Origin: Gallionella sp.
GTDB taxonomy: Bacteria; Pseudomonadota; Gammaproteobacteria; Burkholderiales; Gallionellaceae
Reading direction: 5' to 3'
Assembly (NCBI GenBank): GCA_028688275.1
Contig: JAQTYN010000021.1
Span: forward strand, 1-54,778
DNA: 54,778 nucleotides
The position numbers and the translations under genes were made by a program. Shown here piece by piece: positions 21,183 to 53,933 of the stretch. The notes beneath the pieces are model-generated. The model worked only from the letters and a program-made list of their open reading frames with translations, searched no databases and was not told the origin of the DNA. How positions within the stretch are numbered: position 1 is the first letter of the stretch; every line of letters begins with the position of its first letter.

Positions 21183-21195
21183 CGGAGCTAGGGAA

Positions 21196-21333
21196 ACGCT
21201 GATTAAATCCGTTCGCCCTGAGCCGAGAGCTTGTCGAACGGTCGAAAGGTGGGTGGATTTAACACACTGATTTTATTAAATCTTCCATTCATGGTTCGAC
21301 TGGCTCGCCACAAACGGAAGACTTAATCAGTGT
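21196..21333. repeat. Inverted pair of GTTCGTGGTGAGC...GTCGAAC repeats, locus 1
   Basis: A left unit (CGTTCGCCCTGAGC, then GCTTGTCGAACGG) and a right unit (GGTTCGACTGGCTCGCCACA, then AACGG) face each other inside outer arms ACGCTGATTAA / CTTAATCAGTGT. The same pair occurs at 46499-46600 and 51474-51603. Each copy is intergenic. Confidence 0.7.
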
Positions 21334-27164: not shown

Positions 27165-27217
27165 AGTTATCTGCGAAAAAGTTCAAACATAATCTGGCCG
27201 TATCTATAGTGTTCAGT

Positions 27218-27315
27218 CCCCTCGCCCGCTTGCGGGAGAGGGTTGGGGAGAGGGTAATTTTGATTTTGGGGCACGCTCCCTCTCCCCTGCCCCTCTCCCA
27301 CGAGTGGGCGAGGGG
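27218..27315. repeat. CCCCTC(G/T)CCC...GGGAGAGGG palindromic repeat, locus 1
   Basis: An inverted repeat whose arms are CCCCTCGCCCGCTTGCGGG and CCCACGAGTGGGCGAGGGG, with inner copies of GGGGAGAGGG / CCCTCTCCCC. It lies between adaptor and pump genes. Related units lie at 30552, 34493, 39273 and 43756. Confidence 0.7.
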
Positions 27316-27403
27316 AGTAAAAGCAAAGTGTTGCACAGATTTTTACCTTAAGTTGATGCTGGTTCCCGCATCTGCTGTTATGTTCACTAATCGGTAAGCT
27401 ATT

Positions 27404-30400
27404 ATGTTTGCAAAGTTTTTTATTGACCGCCCCATTTTTGCATGGGTCATCGCGCTGATTATCTTGTTGGGCGGCGGTTTGGCGTTGTACAAACTGCCTG
27501 TCGCGCAATATCCTGCCGTCGCGCCGCCCGCGTTGTCTGTCTCGATTACCTATCCTGGGGCATCGGCGCAAGTGATTGAGGAAACCACGGTCGCACTGCT
27601 GGAACAGGAAATGAACGGCATCGAGCATTTGCGCTATTTGGAATCCGCTTCGGAATTAGGCACGGGCAGCATTACCCTGACTTTTGAAACAGGCACGAAT
27701 CTTGATTTGGCGGCGGTAGAAACCCAAAATCGCATCAAACGTGTCGAAGCGCGCTTGCCCGACGAAGTCCGTCGCCTAGGCATTACCGTCGCCAAAACCG
27801 CGCGTAACTATGTGATGTTTATCTCGCTCTTTTCACCCGATAAAAGTTTGGATGAAGTGGCGTTAGGCAGCTACGTCAGTGCGTCGGTTCTGGACAGCAT
27901 CCGTCGTGTGCCAGGTGTGGGCGAAGCCTTGTTATTCGGCACGGAATACTCCATGCGCTTGTGGTTGCAACCTGAAAAATTGCAAAGCTACAACCTTTCA
28001 CCCGCCGATGTGTCACGTGCGGTGCGGGCGCAAAATTCGCAATTGGCGACGGGGGAATTAGGACAATTGCCGTCCGCCAAAGGGCAAGAACTTAACGCCG
28101 TGATCGTCACCCGCAGCCGTTTATCTTCGCCCGAAGAATTTGGCAATATCATCATTCGCACCAATCCAGACGGCTCGTCCTTGCGAGTCAAAGATGTGGC
28201 ACGGGTGGAATTGGGCGCGCAGGAGTATTCACGTTCGGCGCGCATCGACGGACAACCTGCCGCGAATATCGCCATTCGGCTAACGCCTGATGCCAATGCG
28301 CTGAAAACGGTCGCGGCGGTCAATGCCAAAATGACCGAATTAGCCCCGTTTTTCCCCAAAGGCATTAGTTGGGTCGTGCCTTACGACACCTCAAAATTTA
28401 TCGACATTTCCATCAAAGAAGTGCTGAAAAGTCTCGCCGAAGCTTTGTTGCTGGTGGTGTTGGTGATGTATTTGTTCTTGGAAAATGCCCGTGCCACGCT
28501 GATTCCCGCCATTGTGATTCCCATCGCCTTGGTGGGCGCGCTGGTCGGGCTGTTTTTGCTGGGTTATTCGATTAACGTGCTGACCCTGTTTGCCATGGTG
28601 TTGGCAATCGGCATTGTGGTCGATGATGCCATTGTGGTGGTGGAAAACGTCGAGCGGATTATGCGCACCGAAGGCTTGTCGCCGCGTGATGCCACCCGCA
28701 AGGCGATGGATCAAATCGTCGGTGCGATTATCGCGATTACCTTGGTGTTGTCGGCGGTATTTATTCCGATGGCGTTTTTCTCAGGATCCACGGGGGCGAT
28801 TTATCGCCAGTTTGCCGTCACGTTGGTGTTGACCATGTGTTTCTCGGCGTTGATGGCGTTGACCCTGACACCCGCGCTGTGTGCCACCTTGCTGAAACAT
28901 GATGCGGTGGTGGCGGAACATCATGGCTTCTTTGGCTGGTTTAATCGCTTTTTTGCTCGCATGACCGCAGGCTATACCGCCAGTGTGCAAAAAATTATCC
29001 AAAAGACAGGACGTTATCTGGTGGTGTATGGCGTGATTTTTGTGGCGATGGGCGGGCTATTTACGCAATTGCCAGGGAGCTTTTTGCCCCAAGAAGATCA
29101 AGGCTACTTTGTCAATATGGTGCAGCTCCCACCAGGTGCGACGCAGCAACGTACTTTGGAAGTCTTGAGCCAAGTAGAAGACTATTACCGCAAATTGCCT
29201 GAAGTGGAGCATGTCATTGGCATCGCGGGCTTCTCGTTCTTTGGTCGTGGGCAAAATGCCGCGATTGCGTTTGTGCGACTCAAAGATTGGGATCAACGCA
29301 AATCCGAAGAGAGTTCGTCTCTGAGTATTGTTGGCAAAGCCAATGCGGCATTTTCGCGCATCAAACAAGCCATGATTTTTGCCATTAACCCCCCCCCGAT
29401 TCCTGAGTTGGCGGCGGTAGGTGGCTTCGATTTTCGCTTGCAAGATCGCGGTGGCATGGGGCGAGAAAAGTTGCTGGAAGCGCGCCAATTGGTGTTGGGA
29501 TTGGCTTCCAAGAGTCCCATCTTGGCGGGCGTGCGCCCAGAAGGACAAGAAGCCAGCGCGCAATTGTTATTGGACATTGACCGCCTAAAAGCGGAAGCAC
29601 TCGGCGTGTCCATGACCGATTTGAATGACACCTTGCAAACCACCTTGGGCGTGGCGTACATCAATGACTTTGTGCGCCAGGGACGCGTGTTACGGGTGCA
29701 AATGCAGGCGGATGCGAGTCTGCGCCGCACGCCACAAGATATTTTGAAGTTGTCGATACGCAACAACAAAGGGCAAATGGTGGCTTTGTCAGAATTAGCC
29801 ACACCACGTTGGATCGTTGGCGCGCCGAAGTTGGATCGCTACAACAGCTTGCCTGCGATGAAAGTATCAGGCGGTGCTGCCCCAGGTCGCAGTACGGGTG
29901 AAGCGGTGGCGGAAATGGAAAAAATCGCCAAGCAGTTGCCGCCTGGGTTTGGCTTTGAATGGTCGGGGACTTCTTACGAAGAACGCCAATCAGGTTCGCA
30001 AGCCCCCGCACTGTTCGCTATTTCGCTATTCGTGGTGTTCTTATGTTTAGCGGCGTTGTACGAAAGTTGGTCGATTCCGTTTGCGGTGTTGTTAGTGGTG
30101 CCGCTGGGGATTTTCGGTGCGGTGTTGGCGGTGTATTTGCGTGAGTTACCCAATGACGTGTATTTCAAAGTGGGCTTAATAGCGATTATCGGTTTGTCAT
30201 CCAAAAATGCGATTTTAATTATCGAGTTCGCGCGTAAGTTGCAAGACGAAGGCATGAGCTTGATGGACGCAATATTAGAATCTTGTCGATTGCGATTTAG
30301 ACCGATTTTGATGACCTCCATCGCGTTTATCGTGGGTGTGTTGCCGTTGGCAATTTCCACAGGCGCGGGCGCGCAAAGCCGTCACGCCATCGGTACGGGC

Positions 30401-30517
30401 GTAATGGGCGGGATGATTGCTGCCACCGTGTTAGCGGTGTTTTTCGTTCCCGTATTCTTTGTGGTGGTCCGCCGCATCTTCCCTGGTCATGCCCGTACAG
30501 GAGCGCATCATGAATAA
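27404..30517 (+). CDS. RND efflux inner-membrane pump (AcrB/MexB, HAE1)
   Basis: A 1037-residue proton-driven drug exporter with 12 membrane helices. It has the full family layout: FFIDRPIFAWVIALIILLGG at the N terminus, the proton-relay aspartates D407 and D408 in VVDDAIVVVENVERIM, FFSGSTGAIYRQFAVTLVLT, two large periplasmic loops, and the TM10 lysine region GLSSKNAILIIEFAR. It overlaps the outer-membrane factor gene by 8 bases. Substrate range cannot be read from the sequence; HAE1 pumps usually expel hydrophobic drugs. Confidence 0.97.
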   Translation: MFAKFFIDRPIFAWVIALIILLGGGLALYKLPVAQYPAVAPPALSVSITYPGASAQVIEETTVALLEQEMNGIEHLRYLESASELGTGSITLTFETGTNLDLAAVETQNRIKRVEARLPDEVRRLGITVAKTARNYVMFISLFSPDKSLDEVALGSYVSASVLDSIRRVPGVGEALLFGTEYSMRLWLQPEKLQSYNLSPADVSRAVRAQNSQLATGELGQLPSAKGQELNAVIVTRSRLSSPEEFGNIIIRTNPDGSSLRVKDVARVELGAQEYSRSARIDGQPAANIAIRLTPDANALKTVAAVNAKMTELAPFFPKGISWVVPYDTSKFIDISIKEVLKSLAEALLLVVLVMYLFLENARATLIPAIVIPIALVGALVGLFLLGYSINVLTLFAMVLAIGIVVDDAIVVVENVERIMRTEGLSPRDATRKAMDQIVGAIIAITLVLSAVFIPMAFFSGSTGAIYRQFAVTLVLTMCFSALMALTLTPALCATLLKHDAVVAEHHGFFGWFNRFFARMTAGYTASVQKIIQKTGRYLVVYGVIFVAMGGLFTQLPGSFLPQEDQGYFVNMVQLPPGATQQRTLEVLSQVEDYYRKLPEVEHVIGIAGFSFFGRGQNAAIAFVRLKDWDQRKSEESSSLSIVGKANAAFSRIKQAMIFAINPPPIPELAAVGGFDFRLQDRGGMGREKLLEARQLVLGLASKSPILAGVRPEGQEASAQLLLDIDRLKAEALGVSMTDLNDTLQTTLGVAYINDFVRQGRVLRVQMQADASLRRTPQDILKLSIRNNKGQMVALSELATPRWIVGAPKLDRYNSLPAMKVSGGAAPGRSTGEAVAEMEKIAKQLPPGFGFEWSGTSYEERQSGSQAPALFAISLFVVFLCLAALYESWSIPFAVLLVVPLGIFGAVLAVYLRELPNDVYFKVGLIAIIGLSSKNAILIIEFARKLQDEGMSLMDAILESCRLRFRPILMTSIAFIVGVLPLAISTGAGAQSRHAIGTGVMGGMIAATVLAVFFVPVFFVVVRRIFPGHARTGAHHE

Positions 30518-32000
30518 ATATATCGACAAAAACATAACGCCATGCGCGATTCCCTCTCCCCCAGCCCCTCTCCCGCTTGCGGGCGAGGGGAGCCAGTGCG
30601 GTGGTGGGTATAGATTGGCTGGTGTATTCGGTCTTTTGTTGCTAACAGGCTGCGCCTTAACACCCGACTACCAACGCCCTGCCGCGCCTGTTTCGGCAAA
30701 ATGGGTGAATCCCGCTGCGCAAGCTCCCAAGTTGGCTGATTTTGAGACGAATTTCCAAGATGATCGCCTGAAAAAACTGATTCAAGTCGCATTGGAAAAC
30801 AATCGTGATTTGCGTATTGCCACGGCGCGTATTACCGAAGCGCGGGCGTTGTATGGCATACAACAAGCGGATGTGCTGCCTAATGTTACTGTTTACGGTA
30901 GCCGCACCGCTTCGTTGTCTCCCGCCAGCACGTCGTTTACGGGCAAAGCATTTCAAGCCAATCGCTATGACGTGGGTTTGAGTTTGGTCTCGTATGAGTT
31001 GGATTTTTGGGGGCGCGTCGGTCATTTGAATGAAGCCGCGAAAGCAAGTTTTTTTGCGACCCAAGCTGCACAGCAAGCCTTTCGCTTGTCCTTGATCGCC
31101 GAGGTGGTGAACAGCTATTTGGCGAGCGTGGAGCTGCGCGAACGCGTGGCATTGACCGATACCACGGTGCAAGCTCGTGCCACCAGCCGTGAATTGATAA
31201 ACCAACGTCGCATCATGGGCGTGTCCAGCGACTTGGATTTTTTACAAGCGGATGGGGTATATCAAGCGGCTTTGGCGGAGCAAGCCAATTTACAACGTCA
31301 ACTCAGCGTGGCCGAAAATGCTTTGGAGATGCTGATAGGCAAATCTGTTGCTGACATTAAAGACTTGCCCGCAGGTCGTCCTTTGGCAGCGCAAGCTATT
31401 CAGCCCGCCATGTTTGCCGATTTACCTGCCGAAGTGTTGTTGCAACGACCCGACGTGATGGCGGCGGAGCAAAAGCTGATCGCTGCCCATGCCAGTGTCG
31501 GTGCGGCACGCGTGGCATTTTTGCCGCGTATCAGCTTAACGGGTGGATTCGGCACAGCAAGTCGTACCTTGACGGGGTTATTTGGTGCCAATAGTCAGGC
31601 ATGGAACTTCCAGCCGATGATGAGTTTGCCCTTGTTTGATGCGGGTCGTAGCGAAGGCAATGTTGATTTGGCAAAAGCGCGTGAAGTGGTCGCCGTGGCA
31701 GAATACGAAAAAACCATCCAACTGGCTTTCCGCGAAGTAGCGGATTTACTGAGTGCACGAGAAAATTACGCCAAACAGCTCTCCGCCCAACAAGCGAATC
31801 AAGACACGCAGCAGCAGCGGCTGAAATTGGTCGAAGCGCGCTTTAACGCGGGCGTGTCCAGCCATTTAGAAGTGTTGGATGCGCAGCGCGAATGTTATGC
31901 CGCCGAACAAACTACGCTACAAGTTCGCCGCGCTGCGTTGGTCGCCAATACCCAGTTGTACAAAGCCCTCGCGGGAGCTAACCAAGTGACGCAACCATGA
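30510..32000 (+). CDS. RND outer-membrane channel lipoprotein (OprM/NodT-like) with repeat-derived N terminus
   Basis: A 496-residue TolC-type trimeric channel of the OprM/NodT group. Two repeated OEP domains are seen: LKKLIQVALENNRDLRIATA, ADLPAEVLLQRPDVMAAEQ and LGANSQAWNFQPMMSLPLFD-like segments. The lipobox is LLLTGC. The start at 30510 has AGGAG and overlaps the pump gene. Residues of about 14-28 (IPSPPAPLPLAGEGS) come from a dispersed palindromic repeat, placing an unusual proline-rich insert ahead of the hydrophobic signal core. A TTG at 30615 could restart without it, but would leave a very short n-region. The stop overlaps the TetR gene start. Confidence 0.93.
   Translation: MNKYIDKNITPCAIPSPPAPLPLAGEGSQCGGGYRLAGVFGLLLLTGCALTPDYQRPAAPVSAKWVNPAAQAPKLADFETNFQDDRLKKLIQVALENNRDLRIATARITEARALYGIQQADVLPNVTVYGSRTASLSPASTSFTGKAFQANRYDVGLSLVSYELDFWGRVGHLNEAAKASFFATQAAQQAFRLSLIAEVVNSYLASVELRERVALTDTTVQARATSRELINQRRIMGVSSDLDFLQADGVYQAALAEQANLQRQLSVAENALEMLIGKSVADIKDLPAGRPLAAQAIQPAMFADLPAEVLLQRPDVMAAEQKLIAAHASVGAARVAFLPRISLTGGFGTASRTLTGLFGANSQAWNFQPMMSLPLFDAGRSEGNVDLAKAREVVAVAEYEKTIQLAFREVADLLSARENYAKQLSAQQANQDTQQQRLKLVEARFNAGVSSHLEVLDAQRECYAAEQTTLQVRRAALVANTQLYKALAGANQVTQP
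30552..30590. repeat. CCCTCTCCC...GAGGGG repeat inside the OMF gene, locus 2
   Basis: The CCCCTCTCCCGCTTGCGGGC arm and its relatives match the repeat at 27218-27315. It contributes about 13 in-frame codons to the signal-peptide region of the outer-membrane factor. Confidence 0.75.
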
Positions 32001-32623
32001 CCCAAGCACAGGAACAAACACGAGACCGACTGCTGACCGTCGCACGCCAAGTATTTTCGGAAGTGGGCTTTCAAAATGCCACAGTGCGTGAAATTTGCCG
32101 CCGTGCCGATGCCAATGTCGCCGCCGTCAATTATCACTTTGGCAGCAAAGATGGCTTGTTAGCCGAAGCTTTAAATTTCACCCAACTCAAAACCCTACAA
32201 ACGGAAAATGCCGAAGCGGATGCTTGCCCAAAAGTACGCTTGCGCTTGTTTATTCACGCGTTCCTATCCATGTTGCTTGACGATGACCATCCTTCTTCAC
32301 CTTGTCAAATTATGGCGCGTGAACTTGCCAATCCCTCGCCCGCGCTTGACCAAATTGTGCGTGATGCCCTCGCACCTTTACACGCTTTTTTAGACCAGTT
32401 GGTACACGAAATCGTCGGTGATGCCGTCACTGACATGCAACGTCGTTGCGTGGTGTCCAGTATTTTTGGGCAATGCGTACACTACAGCCACGCCCGCCCC
32501 GTACTACAACGCCTACATCCAGAACTTTGTTATGATGCCGCTGAAATTGCCGCCATCGCCGATCATATCGCTACGTTTTCTTTGGCAGGGATGAGTGGCA
32601 TCAGTCTAAGCGTGAAAAAATAA
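31997..32623 (+). CDS. TetR-family regulator (CecR/YbiH-like, DUF1956)
   Basis: A 208-residue repressor. The N-terminal HTH is RDRLLTVARQVFSEVGFQNA followed by TVREICRRADANVAAVNYHFGSKDGLL. The C-terminal ligand domain (PCQIMARELANPSPALDQIV; SSIFGQCVHYSHARPVL) is of the DUF1956 type found in CecR. The ATG overlaps the preceding stop (ATGA), so it is cotranscribed with the efflux genes it presumably controls. The palindrome at 27133-27164 is a candidate operator. Confidence 0.92.
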   Translation: MTQAQEQTRDRLLTVARQVFSEVGFQNATVREICRRADANVAAVNYHFGSKDGLLAEALNFTQLKTLQTENAEADACPKVRLRLFIHAFLSMLLDDDHPSSPCQIMARELANPSPALDQIVRDALAPLHAFLDQLVHEIVGDAVTDMQRRCVVSSIFGQCVHYSHARPVLQRLHPELCYDAAEIAAIADHIATFSLAGMSGISLSVKK

Positions 32624-32690
32624 GGCGAGGACACGCCGATCGAGCGTTAAGCAATTAACACGGAAGCAATCAAACTTGAGGGGAAATTTA

Positions 32691-33092
32691 ATGTTAGAAC
32701 GGCTTAAAGATTACAAAGAACTGATCGCCATCATCATTTTTTTCCTCAGCGGGGTGTTTTGGCTGCAAAGCACCTTCCCCAGCAAGAATGAAATGAAAAC
32801 CGAACTGGTCTCTATTCGCTGTTTGTTGGACAGCTATATGAAATTGACTCAATTGCAAATTCTCAGCCAAGAGCAAGATAAGCAAGTCAATGAATTACGG
32901 CAAAAGCTCACTCAAGTCCCACCCGACAACGTCAGCGGCGGTCTGGCCATCTCACCCGCCATGCGGGCAGAGTTTGAACAATTGAAGCTTGATTACGCCA
33001 CCAGCAGAAATCAATTGGGACAAACGACGCGGGATATGGCGAAAATACGCGATGAATTGGCGCGGGGCGTGTGTGGAAAGGTGGCACTATGA
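32691..33092 (+). CDS. Single-pass membrane coiled-coil protein
   Basis: A 133-residue protein of unknown function. One N-terminal membrane helix (IAIIIFFLSGVFWLQSTF, about 12-29) is followed by heptad-rich, probably coiled-coil stretches (LTQLQILSQEQDKQVNELRQ; RAEFEQLKLDYATSRNQLG). The ATG at 32691 follows GAGGGGAAATTT; a TTG five codons earlier is in frame. The next gene starts within its stop (ATGA), so the two form a translationally coupled pair. Confidence 0.65.
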   Translation: MLERLKDYKELIAIIIFFLSGVFWLQSTFPSKNEMKTELVSIRCLLDSYMKLTQLQILSQEQDKQVNELRQKLTQVPPDNVSGGLAISPAMRAEFEQLKLDYATSRNQLGQTTRDMAKIRDELARGVCGKVAL

Positions 33093-33574
33093 ACAAGATT
33101 ATCTTGGCGATTTTCACTCTGGCTCTGTTTTCCCAGCAGGCAAGCAGTGCCACGCTAAACGAGCTCATCAATAAAAACATCGGGGACGCGACGCAATCCT
33201 TTGACAAAATGCGCACGACAGCACTGCAACCCGCCAGCGCAGTGCAACTTTGGGTGCATGTCCGAGGCGATAGCCAAATAGCACTCGCACAAGAAATCTT
33301 GGCGCAAGTTGCCAAAACCACCTTCAAACAACAAATCGTCGAACAGAAACCGATTCAAAAAGTAGAGGCTGTGCCGCCCAAAAGCCAGTTGCGCTATTTT
33401 AAGAAACAAAACCAAGCGCAAGCTCAGGAGCTGTTTGATATGTTGCGCCAGCTGATTCCAGAACTCGAACTCAGTGATGTGTCGAGCAAATACGAAAAAG
33501 CGGGCTGGATCCGATCGGGGCATTTTGAGTTGTGGCTGGCACCAGATTTGACTAAGCTCCAGTCTCAGCCCTAA
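33089..33574 (+). CDS. Exported protein of unknown function
   Basis: A 161-residue protein with a clear signal peptide (MNKIILAIFTLALFSQQASS, cut near 20-21) and no membrane helix thereafter. The mature part reads LWVHVRGDSQIALAQEILAQ and later RYFKKQNQAQAQELFDMLRQ and HFELWLAPDL; this looks like a small alpha/beta domain, but I do not recognise the family. It is coupled to the membrane coiled-coil gene and converges on the ABC-F gene with only 4 bases between stops. The pair may form a periplasmic complex (inference). Confidence 0.6.
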   Translation: MNKIILAIFTLALFSQQASSATLNELINKNIGDATQSFDKMRTTALQPASAVQLWVHVRGDSQIALAQEILAQVAKTTFKQQIVEQKPIQKVEAVPPKSQLRYFKKQNQAQAQELFDMLRQLIPELELSDVSSKYEKAGWIRSGHFELWLAPDLTKLQSQP

Positions 33575-33578
33575 TCCA

Positions 33579-35513
33579 TCACCCCGCTGCTTCCAAACTC
33601 ATTTCCAGTTCCAGCCAGCTTTCTTCTAATGCCGAGACTTTGGTTTCCAAGGTTTCGCGTTTGGCATTGAGTTGGGTGATAAAGTCGGGACTACGGGCGG
33701 TGTAGGTGTTGGGATCGCCGAGTTGTTGGTGAATATCCGCCAATTCGGTTTGGGCTTGATTGAGTTCCACTTCCAGTTTATTCAGCTTGGATTGCACGGC
33801 TTTGCGGTTGAACTTCGGTGCGGCTTTGGGTTTTTCCACCTTAACGGCTTGCACGGTTTCACGCGGGCGGCGGGCTTCAATCCACACTTTATAATCTTCC
33901 AAATCGCCATCGAACAAGGCCGCATTGCCATCGGCGACCAACCACAATTCGTCTGCCACGGCGCGGATCAAGCTGCGATCATGTGACACCAACACCACCG
34001 CGCCCGTGTACTCTTCCAACGCCAAGGTCAGCGCGTCGCGCATGTCCAAATCCAGATGGTTGGTCGGTTCGTCCAATAACAGCAAATGCGGCTTTTGCCA
34101 CGCCAATAACGCCAACGCCAGCCGACTTTTTTCGCCGCCTGAAAAACTCGCCACGGGGCGGTCTTCGCTGTCGCCCGCCAAGCCAAAGCGTCCCAAAAAC
34201 GTGCGCAACGCCAAGGTCGTTTCCTTGGGCGCGAGGCGTTCCATGTGTTGCAACGGGGTCGCTGCGCTGTCGAGGTTTTCCAGTTGATGTTGGGCGAAAT
34301 AGCCGATACGCACATCGGGCGTGAGTTCCAATCGTCCCGAAGTCGCCGCCAATTCACCCACTAACAATTTGATTAAAGTGGACTTTCCCGCACCATTCGG
34401 ACCGAGCAAGGCAATGCGCGCCCCAGCACGCAACAGCAAATCGACGTTTTGAAATAAAATTTTCGATGGACGCTCGCGCAGTGAATCCTTATCCCTCTCG
34501 CCCGCTTGCGGGAGAGAGTCGGAGAGAGGGAGGCGGGCATCCCCGCCTGAGCCGTAACCAAACCCCATTTTGTCCGCCCGCAACAACAAATCAGGGCTGC
34601 GTTCTGGGGCTTCGATTTCCAGTTCAAAATGTCCGTCGCTGACGTGGGCGGGGGCGATGCGGGTCAAGCGTTCCAAGGCTTTGACGCGGCTTTGCGCTTG
34701 TTTGGCTTTGGTGGCTTTAGCGCGGAAGCGGCGCACGAAATCTTCCAAATGGGCGATTTTGGCTTGTTGAGTTTGAAAGGCTTGGTTTTGCTGCGTGATT
34801 TTTTCGGCGCGGGCGCGTTCAAAATCGTCGTAATCGCCCGCATAACTGTCGATCACGCAGTCATGGACGTGCGCGATGCGATTCACCGTGGCGTTGAGAA
34901 ATTCGCGGTCATGCGACACCAACAAAATGCTGCCCGCATAACGCGCCAAATACTGTTCCAACCACAAAATCGCCTCTAAATCCAAGTGATTGGTCGGCTC
35001 GTCCAACAGCAACAAATCCGCACGGTGCATCAACGCCCGCGCCAAATTCAAGCGCATCCGCCACCCGCCCGAAAAACTTTGCACGGGGCGTTGCAAACTG
35101 TCGGTGTCAAAACCCAAGCCATTCAACAACTGCGCGGCGCGGGCAGGTGCGCCATAACCATCAATGGATTCAAACAGATGCTGCGCTTCAAACCATGCCG
35201 CATCGTGCTGTTCCCGCGCCAAAGTTTTTTCCAATGATCGCAGTTGTACATCGCCGTCCAGCACAAATTCCAGCGCGGATTGGTCTGAACTGATGATTTC
35301 CTGTTCCACAAAGGCGATGGTTTTGCCGCTTTGCATCGACAGCTCACCGCCGTCAGGCTTGATTTCGCCGCGTATCAAACGGAATAACGTCGATTTGCCA
35401 CAGCCATTTTTGCCCACCAGCCCCAGCCGTTGATTGGCAAAAACCTGCAAATTCGCCTGTTGCAACAGCGGAATCCCGCCCTGTAGATAAGTTAAATTAA
35501 GTATGTTTAGCAT
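33579..35513 (-). CDS. ABC-F ATPase, YheS-like, with repeat-derived insertion
   Basis: A 644-residue soluble ABC-F protein; the family acts on the ribosome as translation factors. It has two ATPase domains without membrane segments. Domain 1: GLVGKNGCGKSTLF, SFSGGWRMRL, LLLLDEPTNHLD. Linker at about 230-300. Domain 2: ALLGPNGAGKSTLI, SFSGGEKSRLAL, LLLLDEPTNHLD. A C-terminal coiled coil lies at about 565-640. The N terminus (LNILNLTYLQGGIPLLQQ) resembles YheS. About 28 extra residues (RLPLSDSLPQAGERDKDS and neighbours, near 317-345) at the first strand of domain 2 are encoded by a palindromic repeat that keeps the frame. Whether this alters function is unknown. Confidence 0.93.
   Translation of the reverse strand: MLNILNLTYLQGGIPLLQQANLQVFANQRLGLVGKNGCGKSTLFRLIRGEIKPDGGELSMQSGKTIAFVEQEIISSDQSALEFVLDGDVQLRSLEKTLAREQHDAAWFEAQHLFESIDGYGAPARAAQLLNGLGFDTDSLQRPVQSFSGGWRMRLNLARALMHRADLLLLDEPTNHLDLEAILWLEQYLARYAGSILLVSHDREFLNATVNRIAHVHDCVIDSYAGDYDDFERARAEKITQQNQAFQTQQAKIAHLEDFVRRFRAKATKAKQAQSRVKALERLTRIAPAHVSDGHFELEIEAPERSPDLLLRADKMGFGYGSGGDARLPLSDSLPQAGERDKDSLRERPSKILFQNVDLLLRAGARIALLGPNGAGKSTLIKLLVGELAATSGRLELTPDVRIGYFAQHQLENLDSAATPLQHMERLAPKETTLALRTFLGRFGLAGDSEDRPVASFSGGEKSRLALALLAWQKPHLLLLDEPTNHLDLDMRDALTLALEEYTGAVVLVSHDRSLIRAVADELWLVADGNAALFDGDLEDYKVWIEARRPRETVQAVKVEKPKAAPKFNRKAVQSKLNKLEVELNQAQTELADIHQQLGDPNTYTARSPDFITQLNAKRETLETKVSALEESWLELEMSLEAAG
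34493..34548. repeat. CCCTCTCxCCCGCTTGCGGGAGAG repeat inside yheS-like gene, locus 3
   Basis: The palindrome at 34493-34530 belongs to the same family as 27218-27315, followed by a small GGCGGG/CCCGCC hairpin at 34532-34548. It sits within the ABC-F coding region and stays in frame on the minus strand. Confidence 0.75.
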
Positions 35514-39272: not shown

Positions 39273-39373
39273 CCTTCCCCCTAGCAGGGGGAAGGGTGGG
39301 ATGGGGGTTGATGGTTCGTTACAAGTGAGCGTTCCTACCCCCACCCTAACCCTCCCCCTGCTAGGGGGAGGGG
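39273..39373. repeat. CCTTCCCCCT...AGGGGGAAGG repeat, locus 4
   Basis: Two palindromic units (CCTTCCCCCTAGCAGGGGGA and CCTCCCCCTGCTAGGGGGAG) flank GGGTGGGATGGGGGTTG and CCCCCACCCTAACC, an inverted pair. Intergenic between fis and purH. It belongs to the same broad class as loci 1-3 and 5. Confidence 0.7.
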
Positions 39374-39438
39374 ACTGTGTAGCTGGAATGACGGTTAAAT
39401 AAACCCACATCAAACATTTTTAACTTTTGGAATCCATC

Positions 39439-43736: not shown

Positions 43737-43755
43737 TGCGTGCTGGCTAGAATAT

Positions 43756-43860
43756 CCCCTCCCCCTTGCAGGGGGAGGGTTAGGGTGGGGGTAGAATGCT
43801 TCACCTGTAGCGCAACCTTTCAACCCCCATCCCAGTTGCCCCCTCGCTTTGCTCTCCCCC
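43756..43860. repeat. CCCCTCCCCCTTGCAGGGGGAGGG repeat, locus 5
   Basis: A palindrome CCCTCCCCC/GGGGGAGGG (43757-43779) with GGGTGGGGG and the complementary CCCCCATCCC (43832-43842) some 40 bases on. Intergenic between purD and tsaC, like the copy at 39273-39373. Confidence 0.65.
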
Positions 43861-46498: not shown

Positions 46499-46600
46499 TT
46501 AAACCGTTCGCCCTGAGCTTGTCGAAGGGTGGACTATTTGAATAGGTTTGTCTTATGAAACATGCCATTCATAGTTCGACAAGCTCACCACGAACGGTAT
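46499..46600. repeat. Inverted pair of GTTCGTGGTGAGC...GTCGAAC repeats, locus 2
   Basis: CCGTTCGCCCTGAGCTTGTC (from 46504) and AGTTCGACAAGCTCACCACG (from 46573) face each other. Intergenic between pyrB and pyrX. Same family as loci 21196 and 51474. Confidence 0.75.
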
Positions 46601-46652
46601 GTTCATTCGGTGTTTTACTCAATTTTTTTAATTTGCAGGAATCCGTGCTGCT

Positions 46653-49441: not shown

Positions 49442-51469
49442 ATGAATCCCTTACTCGATTTTTCTGGCTTACCCCGCTTTGCAGATATTCTGCCTGAACA
49501 CGTTGCCCCCGCGATCGACCAATTGCTCGCCGACAGCCGCACGCTAATTGCGCGTTTATTGGCAGACACCACCCCACCCACTTGGCAAAATTTTGTTGTG
49601 CCGATGGAAGATGCCCACGAACGTTTATCGCGGGCGTGGGGGCCTGTGGGGCATTTGAATGCGGTGATGAATTCGCCTGAATTACGTGAAGTGTATAACG
49701 CCAATTTGCCGAAAATGACCCAGTATTACGCTGAGTTAGGGCAAAATCTGGCGTTGTTCGACAAGTTCAAAGCCTTGCGTAATAGTGCAGAATTCAACAC
49801 CTTAAGTGCGGCGCGTCAAAAGATTATCGAAAACGAATTACGCGATTTTCGCTTGGGCGGCGCGGAATTGCCTGACGCTGAAAAAGCGCGCTATTTGGCG
49901 ATCCAAGAACGCCAGTCCGAATTGTCATCGCGTTTTTCCGACAATATCTTGGATGCAACCAATGACTACAGCTTGGTGATTGAGCAGTCAGATGAGTTGT
50001 CAGGCTTACCCGCTGATGTGTTGCAAACCGCGCAAGAAGCGGCAACGGCGGCAGGTAAAACAGGTTGGTTGTTTACCTTGAAAGCCCCGTCGTATATGCC
50101 TGTGATGCAGTTTTCTGACAACCGTGCACTGCGCGAAACGCTGTATCGCGCTTACAGTATGCGGGCAAGTGAGTTTGGTAAAGCGGAATGGGACAATAGC
50201 CCGTTGATGACAGAAATCGTCGCATTGCGCGCCGAAGAAGCGAAATTGTTGGGTTTTGATAACTTTGGTGAATTGTCGCTGGCGGCAAAAATGGCGGACA
50301 CGCCAGCACAGGTGGTGGAATTTATGCGCAAACTGGCGCAGCGTGCGCGACCATTTGCCGAGCAAGATATGGCGGAATTACGCGAATTTGCGCGTAGAAG
50401 TTTGGGCATGGCGGAGCTGCATTCTTGGGACATCGGCTATGTCAGCGAAAAGCTGCGCGAAAAACGCTATGCGTTCTCCGAACAAGAAGTCAAAGCCTAC
50501 TTCCCAGAAGACACCGTGTTGACGGGCATGTTCAAGCTGATTGAAACCTTGTATGGCTTAACCATCCAAGCAGGTAGCGCGCCTGTGTGGCATGAAACCG
50601 TGCGTTTCTTCGATATTCTGAATGCGCAAGGTCAACGTATCGGGCAATTTTATTTGGATATGTACGCCCGCAGCAGCAAGCGCGGCGGCGCGTGGATGGA
50701 TGATGTGATTACCCGCCGTCGCTTAGCATCGGGTGAGATTCAAACCCCTGTCGCTTATTTGAATTGCAATTTCTCCGCACCTGTGGGCGGCAAGCCTGCG
50801 CAATTTACCCACGACGAAGTCATTACCCTGTTCCACGAATTCGGTCACGGCTTACACCATTTGTTGACCGAAGGCGAAGATTTAGCGGTATCGGGTATCA
50901 ATGGCGTGGAATGGGATGCGGTGGAATTGCCCAGTCAGTTTATGGAAAACTTCTGCTGGGAATGGGATGTGGTGCGAGATATGAGCCGCCATCAAGACAC
51001 TGGCGAGTCCTTGCCCCGTGAATTATTCGACAAAATGTTGATGGCGAAAAATTTTCAAAGCGGCTTGCAAACCCTGCGCCAGATTGAATTCGCGCTATTC
51101 GATATGCTAATGCACAGCCAATTCGAGGCAGGTGGCGGCAAAACGATCTTGCAACTGCTGGACGAAGTGCGTCGCGAAGTCGCCGTGCTGATCCCGCCCG
51201 ATTTCAATCGCTTCCCCAACAGCTTCTCGCACATCTTCGCGGGCGGCTATGCAGCGGGCTATTACAGCTACAAATGGGCAGAAGTGCTGTCCGCCGATGC
51301 GTACAGTTTGTTTGAAGAACACGGCATACTCAATGCGGAAGTTGGGGCACGCTTCCGTGCCGAAGTGTTGGCGGTGGGTGGCTCTCGTCCCGCCATGCAA
51401 TCTTTTATCGCCTTCCGAGGGCGCGAACCAGATATTGACGCGCTGTTGCGGCACAACGGATTGCATTAG
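49442..51469 (+). CDS. prlC: Oligopeptidase A (M3 family)
   Basis: A 675-residue cytosolic zinc metallopeptidase of the thimet family, which degrades short peptides and lipoprotein signal peptides. The zinc site is LFHEFGHGLHHLL (HEFGH at 465-469), with the third ligand Glu about 28 residues on, in WDAVELPSQFMENF. YLNCNFSAP and AGYYSYKWAEVLSADAY are also conserved. The length is normal. The ATG at 49442 is the only convincing start. It follows dinD after 57 bases. Confidence 0.97.
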   Translation: MNPLLDFSGLPRFADILPEHVAPAIDQLLADSRTLIARLLADTTPPTWQNFVVPMEDAHERLSRAWGPVGHLNAVMNSPELREVYNANLPKMTQYYAELGQNLALFDKFKALRNSAEFNTLSAARQKIIENELRDFRLGGAELPDAEKARYLAIQERQSELSSRFSDNILDATNDYSLVIEQSDELSGLPADVLQTAQEAATAAGKTGWLFTLKAPSYMPVMQFSDNRALRETLYRAYSMRASEFGKAEWDNSPLMTEIVALRAEEAKLLGFDNFGELSLAAKMADTPAQVVEFMRKLAQRARPFAEQDMAELREFARRSLGMAELHSWDIGYVSEKLREKRYAFSEQEVKAYFPEDTVLTGMFKLIETLYGLTIQAGSAPVWHETVRFFDILNAQGQRIGQFYLDMYARSSKRGGAWMDDVITRRRLASGEIQTPVAYLNCNFSAPVGGKPAQFTHDEVITLFHEFGHGLHHLLTEGEDLAVSGINGVEWDAVELPSQFMENFCWEWDVVRDMSRHQDTGESLPRELFDKMLMAKNFQSGLQTLRQIEFALFDMLMHSQFEAGGGKTILQLLDEVRREVAVLIPPDFNRFPNSFSHIFAGGYAAGYYSYKWAEVLSADAYSLFEEHGILNAEVGARFRAEVLAVGGSRPAMQSFIAFRGREPDIDALLRHNGLH

Positions 51470-51473
51470 GAAC

Positions 51474-51603
51474 TCACTGATTTAATCTTCCGTTCGTGGT
51501 GAGCCTGTCGAACCATGAGCGGAAGATTAGACGAAATCCAGAATAAATATGTGTATCCTTCGACTGTTCGACAAACTCACGGCTCAGGACGAACGGATTT
51601 TAT
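51474..51603. repeat. Inverted pair of GTTCGTGGTGAGC...GTCGAAC repeats, locus 3
   Basis: TTCCGTTCGTGGTGAGCCTG and following (51488-51530) and GACTGTTCGACAAACTCACG and following (51561-51598) face each other. The left unit is preceded by CACTGATTTAATC, the outer arm also seen at 21300-21333. Confidence 0.75.
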
Positions 51604-51726
51604 CCGCACTTCCTGATTCACCTTGAAGGATAGATAAATGCCAATCCCCCTTTGCATATTTGCAACAGACAATCATACCCTTTGTTGCAAAAAAACCACA
51701 CAACCTTGAACGCTTGTCATAAAACT

Positions 51727-53268: not shown

Positions 53269-53336
53269 CGTAGGAGCGCAATTCATTGCGCGATAGCCCC
53301 TCACAATTCCCTTCGCGCAATTTGTGCGCTCCTACG
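53269..53336. repeat. REP-type inverted pair, upstream of RAYT
   Basis: Arms CGTAGGAGCGCAATTCATTG and CGCGCAATTTGTGCGCTCCT (continuing ACG) form a long imperfect hairpin. The same unit recurs at 53868-53933 on the other side of the transposase gene. Confidence 0.85.
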
Positions 53337-53409
53337 TTATGAAACCAAATCATATTCGTAAGCGTACAATTCATGCCTCAAAAATCCATAAGCAAAATAG
53401 AATTTCCCC

Positions 53410-53853
53410 ATGAATTCAACCGCTCCATCTCATAGTCGCAACCTCCGCATTGGTCGAATTTCGTTGCCCAATCAAATTTATCATGTCACCGTCGCAACGC
53501 AATCGCGGGAACAGGTATTTGCCGATTTTGCGGCAGGTTCGGTGGCGGCGAGGTGTTTGTATAACCAACCGAATCATCTTCAAACGCTGTGCTACGTCGT
53601 CATGCCAGATCACCTGCATTGGTTGTTTCAACTCGGCAGTACCGCAACGCTATCGCAAGTCGTTCGTGCATATAAAGCTAAAGTTTCAATTTCATTAGGA
53701 CGACACATCTGGCAAGCTGGATTTTATGATCATGCGTTGCGCGTGGAAGAGGATGTCATAGAGGTGGCTCGCTATATCGTCTCTAATCCACTACGTGCAG
53801 GTTTATGTCGAAAGTTGGGAGATTACCCATTCTGGAATGCAGTGTGGTTATAA
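53410..53853 (+). CDS. REP-associated tyrosine transposase (RAYT, Y1_Tnp)
   Basis: A 147-residue HUH-type single-strand nuclease of the RAYT/TnpA-REP group. The HUH residues are in VVMPDHLHWLF (H68 and H70) and the nucleophile is Tyr122 in ARYIVSNPLRAGL. The GRISLPNQIYHVTVATQSRE start and WQAGFYDHALR are also typical. RAYTs process single-stranded REP hairpins and are thought to spread them. Two REP pairs flank the gene within 75 bases on each side, giving a compact REPtron. The start at 53410 is the first ATG. Confidence 0.93.
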   Translation: MNSTAPSHSRNLRIGRISLPNQIYHVTVATQSREQVFADFAAGSVAARCLYNQPNHLQTLCYVVMPDHLHWLFQLGSTATLSQVVRAYKAKVSISLGRHIWQAGFYDHALRVEEDVIEVARYIVSNPLRAGLCRKLGDYPFWNAVWL

Positions 53854-53867
53854 CTATCCAAATCCAT

Positions 53868-53933
53868 TGTAGGAGCGAAATTCAATGCGCAAAAGAGGTT
53901 GCGGGCTATCGCGCAATAAATTGCGCTCCTACA
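53868..53933. repeat. REP-type inverted pair, downstream of RAYT
   Basis: TGTAGGAGCGAAATTCAATG and GCAATAAATTGCGCTCCTAC (plus A) form the mirror of the copy at 53269-53336. Both contain the core GCGCGATAGC in the centre. Confidence 0.85.

Follow-up and report, generated by a model that had tools for sequence, protein, structure and literature searches.

Rickettsia palindromic elements (RPE; Ogata 2002; Claverie and Ogata 2003) are reportedly palindromes carried in frame by unrelated proteins that are likely functional. Here we describe a family of short palindromes resembling repetitive extragenic palindromes (REPs) on a contig of Gallionella sp. (GenBank assembly GCA_028688275.1, contig JAQTYN010000021.1, positions 1 to 54,778; "the window" means this whole stretch of 54,778 nucleotides), with one copy in frame in the gene for a lipoprotein outer-membrane factor and another in the gene for an ABC-F ATPase.

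An earlier note, made from the letters of this DNA, had found the two copies and had thought the process little described. That was overstated: REPs lying in frame within genes of bacteria other than Rickettsia had already been listed for families bearing a GTAG or CGTC tag (Di Nocera et al. 2013, PMC3733652). According to that paper, more than half of the intragenic inserts of these families are dimers or groups encoding 20–30 residues, and recB of two Xanthomonas species carries different REPs at about the same site.

Results

Eighteen copies of the Gallionella repeat, both copies within genes of the window included, were aligned and used to build a covariance model, R1. The features that matter here, with open reading frames (ORFs) and lengths in amino acids (aa), are as follows.

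27216..27256, + strand: main repeat, unit 1 of an intergenic inverted pair (R1)
27277..27317, − strand: main repeat, unit 2 of the same inverted pair (R1)
27404..30517, + strand: RND pump gene (ORF; its TAA at 30515-30517 overlaps the start of the outer-membrane-factor gene)
30510..32000, + strand: outer-membrane factor (OEP, PF02321) lipoprotein gene (ORF, Pfam; ATG after CAGGAG, overlapping the stop of the RND pump gene)
30552..30592, − strand: REP-like element in the outer-membrane-factor gene (R1 65.8 bits, E 2e-11; read as PSPPAPLPLAGEGS)
33579..35513, − strand: ABC-F ATPase gene, 644 aa (ORF, Pfam, relatives)
34464..34547, − strand: net insert of the ABC-F protein, residues 323-350, 28 aa (orthologue alignment)
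34492..34532, + strand: REP-like element in the ABC-F gene (R1 52.8 bits, E 1e-8; − strand reading LPLSDSLPQAGERD)

R1 matched within both genes and both ORFs are open, as the earlier note had claimed in placing the repeat inside them with the frame kept; its choice of genes stood, and the edges of the two elements were corrected by R1 to those listed. The literal pattern that it gave for the repeat (CCCTCTCCC, a gap of 3–30, then GGGAGAGGG) had no match in the window. Its placement of the first copy in the signal peptide is visible in the sequence, where the repeat starts 34 nt beyond the stop of the RND pump gene. For ABC-F the position held and the extent did not: orthologues put the insert at the 84 nt listed, twice the length of the repeat.

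The main repeat is a REP-like palindrome of 41 nt with sharp edges. Its hairpin reads CCCCTC[GT]CCC(G/A)CnnG(C/T)GGGAGAGGGG, with the core CTC[GT]CCC(G/A)CnnG(C/T)GGGAGAG, and is followed by the tail GGGGAGAGGG. The flanks of the unit were not conserved, except for weak conservation at the position often taken by another unit in inverted orientation, and a larger conserved unit enclosing the 41 nt was rejected because this conservation was absent. No conserved bases corresponding to a GTAG or CGTC tag occurred within or beside the unit, and Rfam at gathering thresholds gave no match in the window. The host genome (3.16 Mb in 112 contigs) held 127 places with at most one mismatch from CTCNCCCNCNNGNGGGNGAG and none for the reversed pattern. 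Exact matches to the pattern numbered 108 in this genome and from 0 to 54 in each of 36 other genomes of the genus, and were present in 4 of 24 genomes from other families of the order. Stretches fetched around copies recovered 120 of the 127 places. The 152 elements analysed were grouped into 126 clusters, which comprised singles and many pairs of opposite orientation spanning about 90–120 nt. The family was not coding in 93 of these clusters; of the 88 distances separating gene ends from non-coding elements in the window genome, 66 were at most 73 nt, when distances of 700 nt or more were left out.

Flanks were scored by codon usage trained on 146 long ORFs from the same fetched stretches. 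By this score, 31 clusters in 25 ORFs were flanked on each side by coding signal in their frame; together with the outer-membrane factor of the window and the start of a HoxY-like gene, this gave 33 of 126 clusters inside or at the start of reading frames. Thirty clusters satisfied a stricter rule, which demanded a positive coding score and 240 nt free of stops on each side, and in all 30 the strand and frame were kept across the element, with none shifted, while a random insert is expected to keep the frame one third of the time. The frame keeping that the earlier note had read from two genes was thus found genome-wide. An insert length fixed so as to preserve any frame was not supported, since net inserts vary, being 28 aa in ABC-F and, in visual estimates, about 19 aa in both GatB and MutS and 37–39 aa at HrpA site 1 and in PurL.

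The host proteins included LeuRS, ValRS, MetRS (twice), CysRS, GatB, PurL, HrpA (twice), MutS and KdsB; both glycine-decarboxylase subunits, CusA, Mpl, HypE, AcnA, an RlmN-like enzyme (twice) and an RNB nuclease; and ABC transporters, a helicase-like protein and paralogous haemagglutinin-like proteins. At least one curated NCBIfam cut-off was passed by 18 of the 20 host proteins scanned. In the paralogous haemagglutinin-like (TPS) genes at loci L101, L037 and L050 the repeat lay at matching places, and the insert was probably duplicated together with the gene.

All six frames of the repeat consensus are open, and their use was far from even. When coding copies were aligned to the consensus, the four proline/glycine-rich readings were used 14, 11, 5 and 5 times; the two arginine-rich readings (LRERGWGR and PLSRKRARG) were used by 1 of 36 copies, where 12 would be expected at one third (p 9e-6), and that single copy was the weakest match. 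With the five haemagglutinin-paralogue elements removed, the figure was 1 of 31 (p 6e-5). Because of this bias against the arginine-rich frames, we infer selection on the encoded peptide and hence translation of the repeats.

Comparison with solved relatives showed that the repeat residues were additions at most sites. All or most of these residues were missing from the relatives at 9 of 10 sites in eight proteins (MetRS, GatB, MutS, KdsB, LeuRS, CysRS, PurL and HrpA). The absences were clearest in PurL, where 39 residues were unmatched in the solved relative, at HrpA site 1 and in MutS; in KdsB, LeuRS and HrpA site 2, about 9–11 residues were missing.

Across the genus, the residues in question were likewise absent from most orthologues of the two window genes, as the earlier note had supposed. 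Among 46 genus genomes with a match to ABC-F, 38 aligned as two nearly abutting pieces, residues 1-322 and about 351-643; 5 carried the insert at the same site (the window genome, G013, G075, G005 and G020) and 3 were partial. The turn at the insert site had no insert in 24 of 29 readable loci. Of 40 named relatives 36 were readable and 35 of these lacked the insert; the exception, locus L117, had an insert peptide identical to that of G005, and the two may be the same organism. The closest named relatives, at about 78–80% identity, were bins of Gallionellales, Gallionella and Gallionellaceae and one unassigned proteobacterial bin. In an AlphaFold2 model built from 30 sequences, pLDDT was about 90 over most of the core and fell below 50 at residues 322-348, the segment that links two strands (309-320 and 351-362) in the second ATPase domain. 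The insert is thus predicted to be a disordered loop, and the surface-loop placement given in the earlier note agrees with the model. Some ABC-F inserts hold a small TCGC..GCGA-like palindrome in addition to the SLRE flank described in the Discussion.

Eleven of 30 genomes carried 8 or more inserted residues at a single place in GatB. The main-family palindrome was intact in G000, G074 and G016; an unrelated palindrome, with 0 of 100 shuffles as good, occupied the place in G022. The insert states required at least 10 changes on the weakly supported GatB tree. In HrpA, inserts were present at core position 437 in 5 of 30 genomes, and others lay at 201, 245, 406, 566-572 and 962-967. When inserts of this kind were compared with shuffles, the palindrome was clear in some and not in others.

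The signal peptide of the outer-membrane factor proved to be a site of repeated use. From 56 genomes with a match, 50 N-termini were taken and 46 were read by script; G011, G031 and G062 were read later, all short, and G010 was unreadable, leaving 49 readable orthologues. Twenty of these carried an in-frame insert and 29 were short (G001, with a second possible start 75 nt ahead of the lipobox, was counted as short), and none of the readable orthologues needed a frame shift. Measurements cover 18 of the 20 extended forms and presuppose an in-frame start that has a Shine-Dalgarno-like motif; of the other two, G074 was assigned visually, and the sequence of G003 begins at the edge of a contig. 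The distance from start to lipobox was 132 nt in the window gene versus 36–48 nt in measured orthologues without an insert. In each of the 18 the insert was preceded by the required start and contained inverted repeats with arms of 8–29 nt, beginning 18–55 nt after the ATG. The start of the short form was overlapped by a stop codon in another frame in all 24 tested. The HoxY-like gene, the only other N-terminal coding case found in the window genome, likewise has its start overlapped by a stop (TGATG), and its repeat follows 39 nt on. At loci L201 (G027) and L207 (G028), an in-frame start codon closely follows a purine-rich part of the repeat, and this part could act as a ribosome-binding site.

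About ten repeat families, assigned by eye, occurred at this site: the main repeat, a CACGAAG type, a CCCCCTTTG type, several starting with GTAG, CGTCATTCCCGCG types, a GCAGATT type and others. Their status as dispersed repeats was checked for some families: the GCAGATT type had 21, 76, 24 and 35 matches in four carriers and the GTAGGAGCGGGCC type had 48 in its carrier G017, each with 0 in the window genome, where all of these counts include both strands. The sisters G015 and G075 carried different families. On a quick concatenated tree of 51 genomes (9 of 60 rows dropped, the outer-membrane factor itself included, much missing data and weak support in places), the fewest changes were 13 for presence of an insert and 18 for its family. 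Two control lipoproteins, Pal and the adaptor of the same operon (19 measured by motif and 11 read by eye), were each extended in 0 of 30 genomes (Fisher 1e-5 for each control and 8e-9 for both together). With two controls free of inserts, a general tolerance of lipoprotein signal peptides was not supported as the cause of the series.

The window also contains other repeats, listed here without strand.

39273..39375: inverted pair from the CCCTCCCCCTGCTAGGGGGAGGG palindromes, a family related to the main repeat yet distinct from it (repeat search; marginal R1 match at 39336-39375, E 0.0086)
43746..43812: further copy of the CCCTCCCCCTGCTAGGGGGAGGG family (repeat search; no R1 match listed at 43756)

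The earlier note had taken the repeats at 27218, 39273 and 43756 as one; the first is indeed the main repeat, in the form of the inverted pair, and the other two belong to this different family. The CCCTCCCCCTGCTAGGGGGAGGG family has a hairpin-plus-tail plan like that of the main repeat, and a 31-nt piece of it, at 90%, lies in the outer-membrane-factor signal peptide of genus genome G028. A third repeat, with arms like GTTCGACAAGCTC / GAGCTTGTCGAAC, occurs at 21192-21332, 46503-46619 and 51468-51613, in some cases as inverted pairs. The sole Y1_Tnp match in the genome at E 1e-5 (53470-53706) is flanked by arms of yet another repeat, of the GTAGGAGCG type. The ORF concerned, at 53270-53932, resembles a REP-associated tyrosine transposase (RAYT) and lies between inverted copies of GTAGGAGCGCAATTCATTGCGCGA, the classic RAYT arrangement for a different repeat family; it was rejected as the transposase of the main repeat because it is enclosed by these other repeats.

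Discussion

The explanation that we favor, with a probability of roughly 0.86, is that mobile REP-like palindromes multiplied in these genomes and landed in coding sequence, and that the copies seen in genes are in-frame survivors at permissive sites, which several families have reused. The 41-nt element, singly or as an inverted pair of about 90–120 nt, would multiply in the genome, presumably by transposition, and would enter coding sequence as well. With purifying selection as the probable filter, the survivors seen today would be those with a net length that is a multiple of three, situated in loops, linkers or the n-region of a signal peptide and read in a proline/glycine-rich frame (four of the six) instead of an arginine-rich one (two of the six). 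Translation of such inserts would yield short, probably disordered peptides. In the genus as a whole the same permissive sites have taken palindromes of several families, and old copies would decay without closing the frame. In the outer-membrane-factor gene, the palindrome lies in the usual place of a REP, a few tens of bases past the upstream stop, and the gene overlap puts that place inside the next reading frame, where only in-frame inserts would survive. We think that the choice of this site is explained in this way, because REPs usually sit close past stops and the two genes overlap.

Several observations weigh against this explanation. No matching transposase was found for the main repeat, in a search confined to Y1_Tnp at E 1e-5. 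In MetRS the solved relative has an unrelated linker of similar length at residues 655-668, so that a net insert is not demonstrated at this site. Related haemagglutinin paralogues hold five of the 31 scored clusters, which are hence not independent. The GatB insert of G006 is not palindromic, and in the outer-membrane factor of the window a TTG at 30615 could start translation past the repeat. The rest concern inheritance. Five ABC-F inserts (33579-35513 in the window and loci L222-L225) share a non-repeat flank, SLRE (TLRE in one), which fits one old insertion lost several times equally well as repeated insertion. The GatB inserts of G017, G075, G028, G015, G005 and G032 are alike and decayed, with 5–53 of 100 shuffles as good, and look like one inherited copy; at the outer-membrane factor, the inserts of G061 and G021 are 96% identical over 113 nt, and because some alleles there look exchanged or inherited, the number of families is the safest minimum for independent insertions. 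It is possible from these cases, if doubtful, that old ancestral insertions were lost in many lineages and that site reuse reflects inheritance only. One ancestral insert, however, cannot yield different families, such as the ten or so distinguished by eye at the outer-membrane factor or the unrelated palindrome in GatB of G022; moreover, on the quick tree the outer-membrane factor needs no fewer than 18 state changes and ABC-F no fewer than 4, and even the sisters G015 and G075 differ in family.

Other explanations bear mainly on the outer-membrane factor. Many N-terminal REPs were argued to reflect mis-annotated starts and were suspected to be extragenic, according to PMC3733652, and translation might likewise begin after the repeat here, the upstream ATG being mis-annotated and the repeat non-coding. 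In keeping with this idea, an in-frame ATG, GTG or TTG follows the palindrome in 10 of the 18 measured forms, among them the TTG of the window gene, and in G027 and G028 the repeat itself supplies a stretch like a ribosome-binding site. We nevertheless consider it unlikely. An in-frame start with a Shine-Dalgarno-like motif, which the measurement required, precedes the palindrome in 18 of 20 extended forms and is placed as in the short forms, and in 8 of the 18 the stretch from palindrome to lipobox is free of ATG, GTG and TTG, so that the palindrome is most likely translated. We are less ready to set aside, although we would not bet on it, positive selection for a hairpin past the pump stop that protects or limits part of the operon mRNA, with the peptide as a by-product. 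Such selection would suit the occurrence of about ten families at one site in 20 of 49 genomes versus 0 of 60 in two control lipoproteins, one of them from the same operon, as well as the inverted repeats with arms of 8–29 nt in the measured inserts and the overlapping stop found in 24 of 24 short forms and again at the HoxY-like gene. Yet 29 of 49 readable orthologues have an open gene and no insert, the internal sites in ABC-F, GatB and HrpA have no gene boundary, and the shortest arms measure 8–12 nt (G027, G028, G000 and G075); palindromes are also common here as small mobile repeats, so that tolerance plus insertion pressure could look alike. Lastly, the peptides might be ordinary proline-rich linkers that resemble the repeat by chance or low complexity, or, the genome being in 112 contigs, assembly errors, to which repeats are prone. 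This is extremely improbable: the units are complete, with 41 nt of hairpin and tail and E down to 1e-11, both halves of the gene are in frame in 30 of 30 clusters, and the same sites are filled in other assemblies. Chance resemblance was rejected by the absence of any reversed-pattern match, by the R1 E-values and by the residues missing in solved and other relatives.

Insertion and survival of mobile palindromes, the explanation given at the outset, might be extended as follows, tentatively and at odds that we put well below even. The start of the outer-membrane factor would be a slot conserved for palindromes: at an overlap of two genes, selection favoring a hairpin past the upstream stop would repeatedly capture unrelated mobile palindromes, in frame and within the next reading frame; an RNA control element would thereby be written into a signal peptide, and the internal sites would be its neutral counterpart, a steady source of new protein segments.

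The coding copies form a natural series of in-frame insertions in core enzymes, from which it can be learned which loops tolerate additional residues, which frames of one DNA element are acceptable and how an insert decays into ordinary protein. With about ten palindrome families at one place, the outer-membrane-factor site allows a test of whether REPs are kept for a function or merely tolerated. For annotation, the lesson is that peptides like LPSPASGRGVGGEG or PSPPTPLPQAGEG may truly belong to the predicted proteins in which they appear and need not be noise.

Among known systems, RPE share with the present family its in-frame insertion into unrelated protein genes; they differ in host and, it appears, in sequence and size, and most copies of the present family are extragenic.

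The REPs and bacterial interspersed mosaic elements (BIMEs) of enterobacteria and pseudomonads are similarly imperfect palindromes of about 20–60 nt that occur in high copy, singly or in closely spaced inverted pairs, and close behind stops; the present family differs from them in having no GTAG tag and many coding copies, and no matching RAYT was found in the genome by the Y1_Tnp search. Like bacterial miniature inverted-repeat transposable elements, as outlined in PMC3733652, it is short, dispersed and non-autonomous in appearance, but its unit, one hairpin with unconserved flanks, appears to lack a longer body between terminal inverted repeats of 15–30 nt.

The closest likeness is to the GTAG- and CGTC-tagged REPs, which in the same paper are short palindromes found as singles and inverted dimers, mostly extragenic just past gene ends and in part intragenic, with tRNA synthetases and repair genes among their hosts. 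The present family has neither tag, 33 of its 126 clusters are coding, and its avoidance of the arginine-rich frames has been measured; its N-terminal cases are coding in at least 8 orthologues, whereas many of those in PMC3733652 were suspected to be extragenic, and one site is used by about ten families across the genus. Among the titles and abstracts listed from the open-licence literature, there was no report of one coding site reused by unrelated palindromes or of palindromes in signal peptides. Apart from the recB remark, the reuse of a site by unrelated families goes beyond what we found in PMC3733652. As far as those titles and abstracts show, three things are new here: the measured frame bias, the use of the same coding sites in one genus by palindromes that are unrelated, and a link to overlapping gene boundaries.

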